Shown: piece after piece, positions 3,350 to 9,345 of the stretch
Position numbering within the stretch: position 1 is the stretch's first letter
Layout: the number at the start of each line of letters is the position of its first letter
NCBI RefSeq assembly: GCF_003730135.1
Contig: NZ_RJVO01000006.1
Coordinates: forward strand, 124,001-188,000
From: Stagnimonas aquatica
GTDB lineage: Bacteria > Pseudomonadota > Gammaproteobacteria > Nevskiales > Nevskiaceae
Direction: 5' to 3'
DNA: 64,000 nt
The notes under the pieces: model-generated
Told to the model about the DNA's origin: nothing
Seen by the model: only the letters and a program-made list of their open reading frames with translations
Database searches by the model: none
Translations under genes and position numbers: made by a program

Positions 3350-3363
3350 TTGATCCAGGTCAA
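3350..3363. promoter_or_regulatory. FNR/ANR-like binding site
   Basis: TTGATCCAGGTCAA matches the FNR/ANR half-site consensus TTGAT-N4-ATCAA at nine of ten fixed positions. It lies in the divergent gap between the acyltransferase (start 3284) and the SDR gene (start 3441), so it could act on either. A weak -10-like GATAGT sits at 3401-3406 on the plus strand. Oxygen control is inferred from the motif only. Confidence 0.45.
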
Positions 3364-3440
3364 TGACCACCCCGGTAGCGACCCGCAGTCTGCCCAGCCA
3401 GATAGTGCGGGCACCCGGCCCCGCCGAGCGGAGAGCGACG

Positions 3441-4208
3441 ATGGACAGACTGCGGAACAAGGTGGCGATGGTGACCGGCGGGGCTGTTGGCCTCGGCCGC
3501 GCCACTGCGCTGCGCCTGTGCGAGGAAGGCGCCTCGGTGGCGGTGCTCGACGTGCTCGACAAGCCCGGAAGGCAGTTCGTCGCCGAACTGGTGGCGCGCG
3601 GCCTGCGCGCCCGCTACTGGCATTGCGACGTCGCCAGCGAGGCCGAGGTGCAGAAGGTCATACACCAGGCGACCAAGCATTTCGGCCGGCTGGACGTGCT
3701 GGTCAACAACGCCGGCATCGCCGGCATCAACAAGCCCACCCACGAGATCAGCGAAGCCGAGTGGGACCGGGTGATGGCGATCAACGTCAAGGGCGTGTTC
3801 TTCTGCACCAAGCACGCCATCCCGCATCTGCGGAACGCAGGCGGCGGCAGCATCATCAACCTGTCGTCGATCTACGGCCTGGTCAGCGCGCCCGACGTGC
3901 CGCCCTACCACGCCTCCAAGGGCGCGGTGCGGATGATGAGCAAGACCGACGCCCTGCTCTACGCGCCCGACCGCATCCGGGTGAACTCCATCCATCCCGG
4001 CTTCATCTGGACGCCGATGGTCGAGGGCTTCCTGAAAGACGCCGAAGACGCCGAAACCGCGCGCCAGGCCACCGCCGCCCTGCACCCGCTGGGCCACATG
4101 GGCGAGCCCGACGACATCGCCTGGGGCGTGGTGTACCTCGCCAGCGAGGAGGCGAAGTTCGTGACCGGCACCGAGTTGGTGATCGATGGTGGTTATACGG
4201 CGCGCTGA
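3441..4208 (+). CDS. SDR family NAD(P)-dependent oxidoreductase
   Basis: Classical short-chain dehydrogenase of 255 residues. Cofactor motif TGGAVGLG is at residues 12-19, NNAG at 89-92, catalytic Ser142/143, Tyr156 and Lys160 (YHASK). Asp37 at the end of the second beta strand suggests NAD(H) rather than NADP(H). The frame is open 26 codons further upstream, but the ATG at 3441 is preceded by GGAG and starts directly before the Rossmann fold, so it is preferred. Resembles alcohol or hydroxysteroid dehydrogenases; substrate unknown. It is the last high-GC gene before the low-GC cassette, and base composition changes within a few bases of its stop codon. Confidence 0.87.
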   Translation: MDRLRNKVAMVTGGAVGLGRATALRLCEEGASVAVLDVLDKPGRQFVAELVARGLRARYWHCDVASEAEVQKVIHQATKHFGRLDVLVNNAGIAGINKPTHEISEAEWDRVMAINVKGVFFCTKHAIPHLRNAGGGSIINLSSIYGLVSAPDVPPYHASKGAVRMMSKTDALLYAPDRIRVNSIHPGFIWTPMVEGFLKDAEDAETARQATAALHPLGHMGEPDDIAWGVVYLASEEAKFVTGTELVIDGGYTAR

Positions 4209-4366
4209 ACTGCTCGACGGTATCCACATCACATACGGATCGAAAATTGATCGCACAAAACCTCACGGGGCGTAAAGCTCACTACAGCGATGTTTTCGAA
4301 GCAATGGACTTGGACACCCCCTGAGAGCAATCTAGCCCAGCTGTAGGGACAGCACACATCGGGCAT
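4209..4366. other. Left junction of the low-GC cassette
   Basis: 158 bases with no convincing gene. Base composition falls sharply just after the SDR stop codon, with AT-rich words such as CGAAAATTGATCGCACAAAA. A TTGATC hexamer at 4247-4252 could be a -35 element but no good -10 follows at normal spacing. I saw no terminal inverted repeat. Confidence 0.4.
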
Positions 4367-5833
4367 ATGCCAACGCAAAAGTCAGGGGGAGTGACCGATA
4401 CCGAGCGGATGCTCGCAGACTACTGCGAGCGCTCATTCCTGAAACTCTGGAGCTATCCAAACCCGTACAAAGACGACGGACACGAGTTATGTGATCTCCT
4501 CGCCGTGTTTGGAAACCACGTCTTCATTCTGTTTGATCGCCACAAGCGTCTCGCCGCACAGGACGGCAAGGACCCTCAGCTTCTGTGGGAACGCTGGCGA
4601 CGAGAAGTAGTCGATAAGCAGATCGCGACGGCTCATGGCGCGGAGCGCTACATCCGCAGTGGGCGGGCGATCTTCGTTGACGGAAAGAGAACCTCACCGT
4701 TTCCAGTTCAGTTCGACCCAGCAACCATGATCGTTCACAAGATTGTGGTCGCACACGGAGCTGCTGAGGCCTGCCAATCGGCATCGGATCAGAACATTTT
4801 CGGGAGCCTCGCGATTACCTATGAGGACGACCCGGAGCCCTCGGACAATGCGTTCCATGTTCGCCTAGACCGACAGAAGCCCGTACACGTCTTCGACAGT
4901 CACAACTTACCCATCATTTTCGGCGAACTCGACACAGTCGCTGACTTGTCCAGCTACCTCGACGCCAAGCTGGAAGCGATCAAAAAGTATCAGGCTCTCG
5001 TGTACTGCGGCGAAGAAGACCTTCTCGCGCACTACCTTTTGAACTTCGACGCCAAGACGAACAGGCACATCATCGGCACATCGGGCGGCGACTTTGATAG
5101 CGTAATGATTGGCGAAGGCGAGTGGCGTGACTTCGCCAGTTCGGAGACGTATCGACGCACAAAGCTGGCAAACAATGCGTCCTATCTTTGGGATGAGCTG
5201 ATACAGAGAACCTGTCAGAACTCAATCGACGGCACGCTCGAGGGAAACGCCGACCTACTGGGACAGCGCAACGCGATTGTTGAGATGGCCAAAGAGCCAC
5301 GATACATGCGACGCGCACTCGCTGAGGACATAGTCCGCTCGATGCGAAATTTCCCCGAACATCAAGAAGGGCTGGTGCGAAACCTGAGTTTGATGCCAGC
5401 ATCCAACAAAGGGCAGGCGTATCTGTTCCTGCAAATAAAAGTTCCCGAAGACATCCGAGCTGAACCCCAGTACAGACAGGGGCGACAGCACATGCTTGAA
5501 GTTGCTTGCGCTGGTGCCAAGCTCAAGTTCTATGACCTCAAGCAGGTCGTCGGAATAGCGATAGACGCGCCCAAGTACACGCAGCAGAACTCCGAAGATT
5601 TCCTGCTTATGGATTTCGCGACGTGGACCGATGAGACCCGGCAGCAGTACGAACCCCTTGTCGCAGAATTCGGCTTCTTTCGCTCAACTTCGCTGCAAGA
5701 ATCAAGACGGACTGTCTCTGAGTTCGTTAACGCACCCAAGAAAAGCCCAGTAGGCGCGGGGCGGAAACAGGGTCGGAACGAGCCCTGCGCATGTGGATCC
5801 GGCATCAAGTACAAGCGCTGCTGCATGCCATGA
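4367..5833 (+). CDS. SEC-C motif protein of unknown function
   Basis: A 488-residue protein I cannot name beyond its C-terminal SEC-C motif. That motif is a zinc-binding CxC-x8-CC (Cys474, Cys476, Cys485, Cys486, in EPCACGSGIKYKRCC) of the kind ending SecA and many accessory or defence proteins. Near the N-terminus, Glu40, Asp43 and the D57-R-H-K60 segment surround two predicted beta strands (ELCDLLAV, HVFILFD). This pattern is reminiscent of, but not proof of, a PD-(D/E)xK nuclease fold. No signal peptide or membrane segment. Codon use and GC content differ plainly from flanking genes, indicating transfer. Its stop overlaps the next gene's start as ATGA, so the two are translationally coupled. 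Confidence 0.75.
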   Translation: MPTQKSGGVTDTERMLADYCERSFLKLWSYPNPYKDDGHELCDLLAVFGNHVFILFDRHKRLAAQDGKDPQLLWERWRREVVDKQIATAHGAERYIRSGRAIFVDGKRTSPFPVQFDPATMIVHKIVVAHGAAEACQSASDQNIFGSLAITYEDDPEPSDNAFHVRLDRQKPVHVFDSHNLPIIFGELDTVADLSSYLDAKLEAIKKYQALVYCGEEDLLAHYLLNFDAKTNRHIIGTSGGDFDSVMIGEGEWRDFASSETYRRTKLANNASYLWDELIQRTCQNSIDGTLEGNADLLGQRNAIVEMAKEPRYMRRALAEDIVRSMRNFPEHQEGLVRNLSLMPASNKGQAYLFLQIKVPEDIRAEPQYRQGRQHMLEVACAGAKLKFYDLKQVVGIAIDAPKYTQQNSEDFLLMDFATWTDETRQQYEPLVAEFGFFRSTSLQESRRTVSEFVNAPKKSPVGAGRKQGRNEPCACGSGIKYKRCCMP

Positions 5834-7164
5834 ATAGGATGGGAAACCCACAATCTGGTTCTAGCCAATATGAGTCGCTGGAAGAAGTCCTGCAGGAATC
5901 CGTAAGCCAGGCTGCGACTATCGAGCGTTTGCTGGCGTTTGTTTACCTGAAGCGCTTAAAGAAGCTTGGATTCAAGTCGGATGCAGGCGACTTTTCTCGA
6001 TTCCAGACCCGCATCAAAGCCACCGTGGCAACTGGACGGGTCGAGATACCCGTGTCGAGCCGTCGATTTCGCGCTGCCGGAATCACCAAGGTAGCGCTCA
6101 CGAAGCACTTAGAGCGAAAGGTGACAAAGGCGGAGATGGCTGCGTTCGAGCGAATCATCGCAAAGGCGACCGAAGGCACTGTCCATGCCGCAATGCAGTC
6201 CATGTCGGAGGCATATACCCGAACGATCAAGTCATCGAGCGTTGAATACCTCAGACAACGGCGGCAGGAGCAGGATCGCTTCAAGCGCGATGTCGAGCGC
6301 GAGTGGCGAAAACCGTTGGCGCATTTGCAGTTACAGCTTGATGTTGCGCGAGACCTTGGGAATGCAGTCATCGAAAAACTGGAGACTTCAGGCGACAAGA
6401 GCCGGGAGCCCAGCAAATTCGATGCTGTCCTGACCTCATTCGCGAGGGCGTGCCAGATCGTCGACGAAATCATCACCCTACTCGCGAGCGGTTTTGCAGA
6501 TGGAGCAGAGGCCCGCTGGCGGTCGTTGTACGAAATTCAGGTCGTTTTGACTCTCTTAGCTCAGGGAGATGAACTTCTTTCGGAAAGATTCCTTCATCAC
6601 CACGACATTGATCTGCTCAACGAAGCAAAGAGCATGTTAGCCGTCGCGGGCAAGAATGCCTCGAAGACGATCACTCGTAGGCACAAGGAGCTGGTTGAAG
6701 TCCGAAACGAACTGACTTCAAGGTTTGGCACTGCATTCGATGCGCCATACGGTTGGGCATCAGAACTTCTAGGTCACAGGGCATCTCGCTTCAGTGACCT
6801 GGAGATTCGAGCTGGTTCTGCCAGCTTCAATCCACACTACAAAGCTGCCAGCGCCAACATCCATGCGGCAGCTAGAGGCTCGCTTACTAGAATCGGGTCT
6901 CCGCCCGGCTTTGATGGAAGGTTAGCGGGAGCAAGCAATTACGGTTTGGCAGGGCCAGCGAACAAAACAGCGGCAGTGTTGGTGCTCGCTTCGATCTCCT
7001 TGGCGCAATACAGCGGATCGACGGAGATCATGTCGCAGGCGATGACCATGCAGAGCCTTGCAAGAAAAGTGGCGATACTTGCCGACGCTGTCGCTGACAG
7101 ACTTGATGGGCGTCCTCGAAGGAAGCGAAAGCTGCGGGTGAGGAAATCCCAGCCAATCCGCTAA
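5830..7164 (+). CDS. DUF5677 domain-containing protein
   Basis: A 444-residue hypothetical protein. The central segment around 'FADGAEARWRSLYEIQVVLTLLAQG' followed by 'SERFLHHHDIDLLNEAKSML' matches the DUF5677 family, which has no known function. The N-terminal 200 residues are charged and helical with possible coiled coil, and the last 15 residues are strongly basic (RPRRKRKLRVRKSQ). The start at 5830 gives a four-base ATGA overlap with the SEC-C gene; the frame stays open 13 codons upstream, but that start would lie inside the neighbour. Low GC like its partner. Role inferred only as half of a two-gene accessory module. Confidence 0.75.
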   Translation: MNRMGNPQSGSSQYESLEEVLQESVSQAATIERLLAFVYLKRLKKLGFKSDAGDFSRFQTRIKATVATGRVEIPVSSRRFRAAGITKVALTKHLERKVTKAEMAAFERIIAKATEGTVHAAMQSMSEAYTRTIKSSSVEYLRQRRQEQDRFKRDVEREWRKPLAHLQLQLDVARDLGNAVIEKLETSGDKSREPSKFDAVLTSFARACQIVDEIITLLASGFADGAEARWRSLYEIQVVLTLLAQGDELLSERFLHHHDIDLLNEAKSMLAVAGKNASKTITRRHKELVEVRNELTSRFGTAFDAPYGWASELLGHRASRFSDLEIRAGSASFNPHYKAASANIHAAARGSLTRIGSPPGFDGRLAGASNYGLAGPANKTAAVLVLASISLAQYSGSTEIMSQAMTMQSLARKVAILADAVADRLDGRPRRKRKLRVRKSQPIR

Positions 7165-7201
7165 CCATCTAAACGTCCGACACCTCTTGAATGGCGGTTC
7201 T

Positions 7202-7456
7202 TTATATCTGCTCGATCAGCAACACGGGAGCGGCGCCCAAAGACTCTGCCAGCCGATCAAGCACATTGAGGTTGGCAGCCAGCACGCCATGCTCGATTCC
7301 GCTGATCGAGACCTGAGTGAGTTGAGCCGCTTCCGCAAACTGCTCCTGTGACCAGCCATTCTCCTTCTGCAGGCGTCGGACGTTATGTCCTTTGGGTTCG
7401 GAGTCATCGGCGCGGAGTTCGTCGTCGAGCGCAGCCAAGCGGAGAGCAAGACGCAA
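7202..7456 (-). CDS. XRE-family helix-turn-helix protein (small)
   Basis: An 84-residue protein made almost wholly of one Cro/C1-type HTH: 'VRRLQKENGWSQEQFAEAA' is helices 1-2 and 'LTQVSISGIEHGVLAANLNVLDRLAESLGA' covers the recognition helix and helices 4-5. The start appears to be TTG at 7456; an in-frame TAA lies three codons upstream and no internal ATG or GTG precedes the domain. It runs convergent to the DUF5677 gene and in the same direction as glmS, whose stop is 63 bases upstream. Could be a regulator of the cassette or an orphan antitoxin; no toxin gene adjoins it. Confidence 0.65.
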   Translation of the reverse strand: MRLALRLAALDDELRADDSEPKGHNVRRLQKENGWSQEQFAEAAQLTQVSISGIEHGVLAANLNVLDRLAESLGAAPVLLIEQI

Positions 7457-7518
7457 TGACTTTTCTTACCGCGGAGCGGTCACAACCACGTCGTACCGCA
7501 AACCACACCCGTTGGAAA

Positions 7519-9345
7519 CTATTCCACCGTCACCGACTTGGCGAGATTGCGCGGCTGATCGACATCGGTGCCCTTGAGCACGGCGACGTGATAGGCCAGG
7601 AGCTGTAGCGGCACGGTGTAGACGATGGGATCGGTCAGTTCGTCGGCATGCGGCATGCCGATGACGGTGACGCCCGGCTCGCTCTTGAAGCCAGCCTCGC
7701 GGTCGGCGAACACATACAGCTCGCCGCCGCGCGCCTTCACTTCCTGCAAGTTGCTCTTCACCTTTTCCAGCAGGTGGCCATCGGGCGCGACCGCGATCAC
7801 CGGCATGTGCTCATCGACCAACGCCAGCGGACCGTGCTTGAGCTCGCCGGCGGCGTAGGCCTCGGCGTGGATGTAGGAGATTTCCTTGAGCTTGAGCGCG
7901 CCTTCCATCGCCACCGGCCACATCGGGCCACGGCCGAGGAACAGCGCGTGCTCCTTGGCGATCAGGCGCTCGGCCAGCCTTTGCAGCACGGCGTCTTCCT
8001 TGAGCACCTCGTCCACCTGGCGGGCGGCGGCTTCCAGGCTCTTCACGTAGCGGCGTTCCTGGTCTTCGCTCAGGCCGTTGCGGCGCGCCAGCAGCAGCAT
8101 CACCAGCGCCAGCGCCATCAACTGGGTGGTGAAGGCCTTGGTGCTGGCGACGCTGCGCTCGGGGCCGGCATGGGTCATCAGTGCGATGTCGCTCTCGCGC
8201 ACCAGGCTGGACTCCGGCGCGTTGCAGATCACCAGGCTGGCGGCGAGCTGCTTGGTCTTGGCGTGGCGCAGGGCTTCGAGCGTGTCGGCGGTCTCGCCGG
8301 ACTGGCTGATGCTGATGAACAGGGTGTCCGGCTCGATCACCGGATCGCGGTAGCGGAACTCGCTGGCCAGCTCGATGCGGCAGGGCAGCTTGGCGATCTG
8401 CTCGATCCAGTATTGCGCCACCAGGCCGGCGTGCGCGGAAGTGCCGCAGGCCACCAGGCGCACGCGCTTGACTCGCGCCAGCAACTCGGCCGCACGCGGG
8501 CCCAGGCAGGCTTCGAGCACGCGGCCACCGTTGATGCGGCCTTCCAGGGTGTTGGCGAGCGCGGTGGGCTGATCGAAGATTTCCTTGATCATGAAGTGCC
8601 GGTACTCACCCTTGTCGACGGCGCCGGCACTCAGGTTGGAGAGATGCTCCTTGCGGATCACCGCGCGGCCCTCGCGGTCGAACACCGCGTAGCCGTCGGT
8701 AGTGATCTCGCCGAGATCGCCTTCGTCGAGGTAGACGATGCGGCTGGTCACCGAGACCAGGGCGGTGGCGTCGGAGGCGGCAAAGTTTTCGCCGACACCA
8801 ATGCCGATGCACAGCGGGCTGCCGCGCCGCGCCAGCAGCATGCGCCCCGGCTCCTTGGCCGAGATCACCACCAGCGCGTAGGCGCCGGTGATGCGCTTGA
8901 CGGTGGCGAGCATGGCCTCGCGCAGATCCTTGCCGCCGTCGATGTAGTGCTGCACCAGGTGCGCGACCACTTCGGTGTCGGTTTCCGACTGAAACTGGTA
9001 GCCGAGCGCGACCAGCTCCTCGCGCAGCTCCTCGTGGTTCTCGATGATGCCGTTGTGCACCACCGCGACATCGGTGGAGACATGCGGGTGCGAATTGCGC
9101 TCGGCCGGCACGCCGTGGGTGGCCCAGCGGGTGTGGCAGATGCCGGTGGTGCCGGGCCTGGGCGTGGCCACCAGCAGGGCTTCGAGTTCCGCCACCTTGC
9201 CCACCGCGCGCGCCAGCTGCAGACGACCGTCGGCGATCACCGCCACGCCGGCGGAATCGTAACCACGGTATTCGAGGCGCTTGAGGCCCTCGATGAGGAT
9301 GGGAGTGACATTGCGCTGCGCAACCGCGCCGACGATGCCGCACAT
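7519..9345 (-). CDS. glmS: Glutamine--fructose-6-phosphate aminotransferase (isomerizing)
   Basis: First committed enzyme of UDP-GlcNAc synthesis: makes glucosamine-6-phosphate from fructose-6-phosphate and glutamine in the cytoplasm. 608 residues, near the 609 of Escherichia coli. The N-terminal Cys (after Met removal) starts the class II glutaminase domain (CGIVGAVAQRN), with RGYDSAG following. Two SIS sugar-isomerase domains occupy residues ~285-600, ending in the typical PRNLAKSVTVE. Start ATG has AAGGA seven bases upstream. The TATAAAAT on the minus strand at 9394-9387 is a plausible -10. Separated from glmU by two small membrane-protein genes, unlike the adjacent glmUS of many gammaproteobacteria. 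The 3' end would be the attTn7 recognition region. Confidence 0.97.
   Translation of the reverse strand: MCGIVGAVAQRNVTPILIEGLKRLEYRGYDSAGVAVIADGRLQLARAVGKVAELEALLVATPRPGTTGICHTRWATHGVPAERNSHPHVSTDVAVVHNGIIENHEELREELVALGYQFQSETDTEVVAHLVQHYIDGGKDLREAMLATVKRITGAYALVVISAKEPGRMLLARRGSPLCIGIGVGENFAASDATALVSVTSRIVYLDEGDLGEITTDGYAVFDREGRAVIRKEHLSNLSAGAVDKGEYRHFMIKEIFDQPTALANTLEGRINGGRVLEACLGPRAAELLARVKRVRLVACGTSAHAGLVAQYWIEQIAKLPCRIELASEFRYRDPVIEPDTLFISISQSGETADTLEALRHAKTKQLAASLVICNAPESSLVRESDIALMTHAGPERSVASTKAFTTQLMALALVMLLLARRNGLSEDQERRYVKSLEAAARQVDEVLKEDAVLQRLAERLIAKEHALFLGRGPMWPVAMEGALKLKEISYIHAEAYAAGELKHGPLALVDEHMPVIAVAPDGHLLEKVKSNLQEVKARGGELYVFADREAGFKSEPGVTVIGMPHADELTDPIVYTVPLQLLAYHVAVLKGTDVDQPRNLAKSVTVE

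Follow-up and report, generated by a model that had tools for sequence, protein, structure and literature searches.

A foreign low-GC islet behind glmS of Stagnimonas aquatica carries two candidate anti-phage genes

Introduction

Tn7 inserts about 25 bp downstream of the stop codon of glmS, an essential gene, and leaves that tail of the resident site in place. The islet described here shares its position behind glmS with Tn7-like elements, but it has neither transposition genes nor Tn7 ends and its junction is different. The defence genes that come closest to those of the islet are PD-T7-1 and a DUF4238 gene of E. coli. The role of both in defence has experimental support (PMC9519451, PMC9122126), a DUF4238 protein giving resistance to T7 (PMC9122126). 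They have the same mobile lifestyle as the islet genes and are found directly downstream of homologues of one of them, but they are not themselves homologous to the islet genes.

The islet encodes a SEC-C protein and a DUF5677 protein. Full-length homologues of the former are known as PHROG 18195 and as plasmid proteins annotated as 'SEC-C metal-binding domain-containing protein'; these are mobile and their function is likewise unnamed. Most of the plasmid versions are only 27–34% identical to the protein studied here and have FSDK where it has FDRH, and several are without the SEC-C tail. Literature searches (DUF5677; SEC-C metal-binding together with phage) found no published functional study of either family, and PADLOC-DB (2023) covers neither of them apart from the SEC-C tail. 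Here we name the two protein families as candidate anti-phage genes. Conjugative plasmids of Klebsiella and its relatives carry SEC-C family members in abundance, and the proposed role, if true, would bear on phage–plasmid dynamics in clinical bacteria.

Results and discussion

A foreign islet between an SDR gene and glmS

The window, that is, the whole stretch of DNA analysed, is 64,000 nucleotides long. The islet occupies positions 4209–7518, between the stop codons of two genes of resident DNA, an SDR gene on the left (3363–4208, + strand) and glmS on the right (7519–9345, − strand). Its GC content is 0.552 compared with 0.683 for the whole window, and when the window was scanned with a step of 100 (mean 0.681, s.d. 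0.034), the lowest-GC stretch of 3310 bp was found to start at position 4201. GC3 is 0.66 in the SEC-C gene and 0.60 in the DUF5677 gene, against 0.90 in the SDR gene and 0.89 in glmS. The sharp drop in GC between the SDR gene and glmS, which the original prediction had read from the sequence, is thus real; a lack of any difference from the neighbours had been named beforehand as the result that would count against the idea, and the computed values differ clearly. Pfam also confirms the three genes placed in the cassette, those of the SEC-C, DUF5677 and small XRE proteins (PF02810, PF18928 and HTH_3, respectively). A genome search found the islet in a single copy, and no RNA families or tRNA genes were found at the site.

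In a sibling species (G004), the same flanking genes are present in the same order, glmS being 96% and the SDR gene 94% identical, and the homology stops exactly at the stop codons of the two genes (the alignment ends at window positions 4210 and 7519). The SDR–glmS interval of the sibling is 1.0 kb long, has a GC content of 0.62 and is unrelated to the islet, and other members of the genus and family have different contents behind glmS. The same genes at the same place in all relatives, which would have spoken for vertical inheritance, were therefore not what the comparison revealed. In the related genomes searched, nothing close to either the SEC-C or the DUF5677 protein was found. A full-length SEC-C relative is absent from the 60 relatives, save for one at 27% identity in G008, and in a class-wide sample of 369 genomes a DUF5677 relative was found in only two other genomes, at about 30% identity. 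The results support the view that the islet is foreign, low-GC DNA that was recently exchanged behind glmS. Since both species may have changed at the interval, either state may be the ancestral one.

The interval of the sibling (L087:1828–2841) contains an extra DUF167 gene and a gene for a Met-rich protein that looks secreted; searches of other species of the genus gave only distant matches to them.

The ends of the islet

The ORF list and Pfam gave no tns genes in positions 4209–7518, in agreement with the initial remark that neither tns genes nor Tn7-like ends were to be seen. The suggestion that the islet is nevertheless a remnant of Tn7 or of a Tn7-like element at attTn7 did not hold up as well. 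Such an origin would fit the position behind glmS, and contig C2 of the genome does carry a tnsA/tnsB/tniB/tniQ-like element, with the only TniQ match above the cut-off in the genome. At the islet, however, tns genes are missing and there is no resident tail of about 25 bp, the homology to the sibling ending at the stop codon itself (7519), and neither islet end resembles the C2 element more than would be expected by chance. We consider a Tn7 remnant highly improbable.

The C2 element itself (L197:5812–12252; G000:C2, about 141.8–148.3 kb) encodes a TnsA-like protein, a DDE transposase, an AAA protein and TniQ and is Tn7/Tn5053-like; the names tnsA, tnsB and tniB were assigned by eye, and TniQ by a profile match above the cut-off. 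Its GC content is about 0.60–0.64, that of the upstream surroundings 0.54–0.61 and that of the adjoining resident DNA about 0.70.

A candidate element end of another kind lies directly after the glmS stop codon (7471–7518, − strand). In these 48 bp, 44 of 48 aligned bases are identical in another genome (G003), where a 6-nt insertion brings the sequence to 54 bp; the glmS gene of G003 is only 63% identical to that of the window, yet the end sequence is common to both. The shared end is absent from the sibling, from other relatives and from the class-wide sample of 369 genomes, and when viral contigs, plasmids and the class-wide sample were searched for the glmS-side end, no match rose above background. 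When the two islet ends were compared, no convincing partner of the glmS-side end was found at the SDR side. The 54-bp shared end, present in just two genomes, suggests an element other than Tn7 that targets glmS, and the islet would probably be what is left of a mobile element of this kind, with its insertion point immediately behind the glmS stop codon.

A direct repeat of an att core on the SDR side was also considered and rejected, as it did not exceed chance level (rank 1651 of 4256 positions). In G003 (L090:1–1359, G003:C62), the shared end is followed by small element-like genes and the start of a transposase, IS3-like as judged by eye, and then by the end of the contig.

The SEC-C protein

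The first gene of the islet (4367–5833, + strand) encodes a protein of 488 aa with an N-terminal region, a conserved middle and a C-terminal SEC-C zinc motif. Pfam PF02810 (SEC-C) matches residues 470–488 (E = 3.8e-8, 33.5 bits, cut-off 20.4). The C-terminal C-x-C-x8-C-C/H motif is present, and C474, C476 and C485 are invariant in an alignment of 24 relatives; a second alignment comprised 12 relatives. PHROG 18195 matches the protein over its full length (E = 2.5e-44), while PADLOC-DB 2.0.0 (2023) gave only tail matches, to PDC-S12 and E2-type models.

In the AlphaFold2 model (pLDDT 79.5; weak at residues 32–36 and 454–466), the N-terminus consists of a helix (11–23), three strands (27–29, 44–48 and 51–56) and a second helix (70–97). 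This helix-strand-strand-strand-helix order would suit a PD-(D/E)xK core, the fit being judged by eye. Possible PD-(D/E)xK-like motifs are E13, E40-x2-D43 and D57-R58; E13, E40, D43 and D57 are conserved in the relatives, as is K or R at position 58, and in the subfamily of the window protein R replaces K at the position of the catalytic lysine. Foldseek searches of the PDB with the model gave no match at E ≤ 0.001, and Cas4, RecE and lambda exonuclease were among the weak matches. HHalign of the SEC-C protein against NERD gave E = 0.53, no better than a control region; in one of 12 family members, a NERD match with E = 0.15 was obtained. Nuclease activity is a guess that fits the model, and we regard it as possible rather than likely. 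If it is correct, the N-terminal PD-(D/E)xK-like domain would cut nucleic acid during infection. The C-terminal zinc motif would bind a nucleic acid or protein related to the infection.

The DUF5677 protein

The second gene follows on the same strand. In the ORF list it opens at 5791 and codes for 457 aa; because the ATG at 5830 overlaps the stop codon of the SEC-C gene as ATGA, its start is probably there and not at 5791, which gives a protein of about 444 aa (5830–7164, + strand). Pfam PF18928 (DUF5677) matches residues 212–365 (E = 1.6e-22, 80.7 bits, cut-off 27.1). The window copy keeps the conserved core of this family (PHROG 27456) with the invariant residues R242, R244, E248 and H358 (numbered in the 457-aa ORF from 5791). 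It is only 18–26% identical to its viral relatives and has about 100 extra N-terminal residues, where model confidence is low. The structure model is all helical (pLDDT 76.7); Foldseek found no match to it in the PDB at E ≤ 0.001, and no model of PADLOC-DB 2.0.0 matched the protein. It could serve as a second effector or as a sensor, acting via a pocket formed by the conserved R-x-R-x3-E and H.

Relatives of the DUF5677 protein are encoded on 23 viral contigs. In five prophages (L126, L127, L129, L130 and L138), the gene is located between or beside tail-completion-like and baseplate-like genes, which by sequence we take to be S and V of P2; on the P2 map, the S–V position is presumably the locus of fun. 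Vassallo et al. reported the second P2 defence locus, which contains fun, as a defence hotspot (PMC9519451). We also noticed that the same phage gene adjoins DUF5677 in L143 and L146 and SEC-C in L113 and L114; related prophages thus hold one or the other family in a common cargo slot, but were not seen with both.

Relatives of the SEC-C protein are mobile and accompanied by defence genes

SEC-C relatives at 46–58% identity are scattered over proteobacteria, Desulfobulbaceae-type bacteria, Chlorobiaceae and others. At identities of up to 60%, they were found in 139 plasmid records, 90 of them conjugative; they are also present on prophage-like contigs, and phage integrases make up 6 of the 104 neighbour proteins. 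Averaged over 25 loci, the GC of the SEC-C gene is 5 points below that of the surrounding DNA. In Klebsiella, SEC-C is situated between the replication and capsid modules of an element that has genes for an integrase, AlpA, a primase-like protein, capsid, portal and terminase and that, from the annotation, we read as a capsid-forming satellite.

Known defence genes recur beside these relatives. PD-T7-1 is directly downstream of the SEC-C gene in three loci (L036, L047 and L118) and a DUF4238 gene in two (L113 and L114); in L025 and L055, a type III Res gene lies upstream of SEC-C and overlaps it by 4 nt, and SIR2-pAgo (SIR2-Argonaute) and Avs2 are found near SEC-C in L032 and L053, respectively. 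At E ≤ 1e-8, 112 PADLOC families were counted among the 104 SEC-C neighbour proteins and only 6 among 98 glmS-neighbour control proteins; the counts are of redundant models and not of genes, with simple longest-ORF gene calls, the control set is not taxon-matched, and PADLOC itself was built largely from defence islands.

Being found next to defence genes is no proof of a defence function. SecA and YchJ-like proteins have SEC-C motifs as well, and the islet genes could have been transferred with another role, in element maintenance, DNA repair or the metabolism of the donor. It seems unlikely that such a role would explain the recurrent juxtaposition with known defence genes, which was not seen in the control set, or the relatives in cargo slots of phages and satellites. 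On the strength of this association, the islet genes are probably virus-defence cargo; they would be of an anti-phage type that is common on plasmids, satellites and prophages, and the islet would have retained both of them.

Two genes in one transcription unit

The SEC-C and DUF5677 genes are on the same strand and similar in GC, and the stop codon of one overlaps the start codon of the other as ATGA, all of which would suit a two-component defence system, a complex kept in balance by translational coupling. The original prediction had likewise taken the pair for one coupled system. The two genes were not found together elsewhere, however: DUF5677 was present in 0 of 44 SEC-C loci (profile search, with the window locus as positive control) and SEC-C in 0 of 30 DUF5677 loci (tblastn); some of these loci are short, so that a partner farther away might have escaped detection, though not one coupled to the gene. 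In addition, a 4-nt overlap couples SEC-C to unrelated genes: in five loci the partner encodes a 746-aa P-loop protein, and in two it is type III Res. As there is no co-occurrence in either set of loci, two independent genes, stacked here, are favoured, and a single two-component system is rather unlikely.

The SEC-C and DUF5677 genes would most likely each be an independent defence gene sufficient by itself; they would share a transcription unit and be translated together by way of the ATGA overlap, without forming an obligatory two-component system. An undescribed defence-like system had been proposed for this site; the mobility of the genes and the defence-gene neighbourhood of their relatives speak for that proposal, while coupling into one system and the link to Tn7 found no support. 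The full account, a non-Tn7 relic with two independent defence genes, of which SEC-C would be a nuclease and DUF5677 an effector or sensor, has in our judgement an even chance of being right. A broader reading is more doubtful, namely that SEC-C might be a widespread single-gene defence, as yet undescribed, which is repeatedly docked, often with a 4-nt overlap, onto operons of unrelated defences, those of type III restriction, PD-T7-1, DUF4238, Avs2 and the 746-aa P-loop protein. In this islet it would be docked onto DUF5677, likewise an undescribed defence gene of prophage hotspots, and a non-Tn7, glmS-targeting element would carry the pair.

The XRE gene

A small XRE-family HTH protein is encoded convergently to DUF5677 (7202–7456, − strand; Pfam HTH_3, E = 1.5e-9), for which a TTG start is needed. 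Its membership of the module is uncertain. The protein has weak similarity to HipB-type antitoxins and its gene adjoins the pair, as could be expected of a toxin–antitoxin or selfish maintenance module in which the XRE protein controls DUF5677 or SEC-C as the toxin. This is very unlikely, as the XRE gene is convergent and not co-operonic, and no conserved XRE neighbour recurs in the clusters of SEC-C neighbours.

Other neighbours of SEC-C genes

The 746-aa P-loop protein, which has no Pfam or PADLOC match, is encoded by a gene coupled to SEC-C by a 4-nt overlap in L030 (7761–9998), L034, L039, L040 and L048, and L028 and L056 contain remnants of it; the protein is possibly a partner of SEC-C that has yet to be described. 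Similarly, a 1069-aa protein for which no Pfam or PADLOC match was found adjoins divergent SEC-C homologues in L038 (6716–9922) and L151 (6450–9575), the two copies being 43% identical. The SEC-C homologue of the latter locus (L151:9878–11359), on a Sphingobium plasmid, is located near a pair of DUF1837 and DEAD/DEAH helicase genes that is Hachiman-like by annotation.
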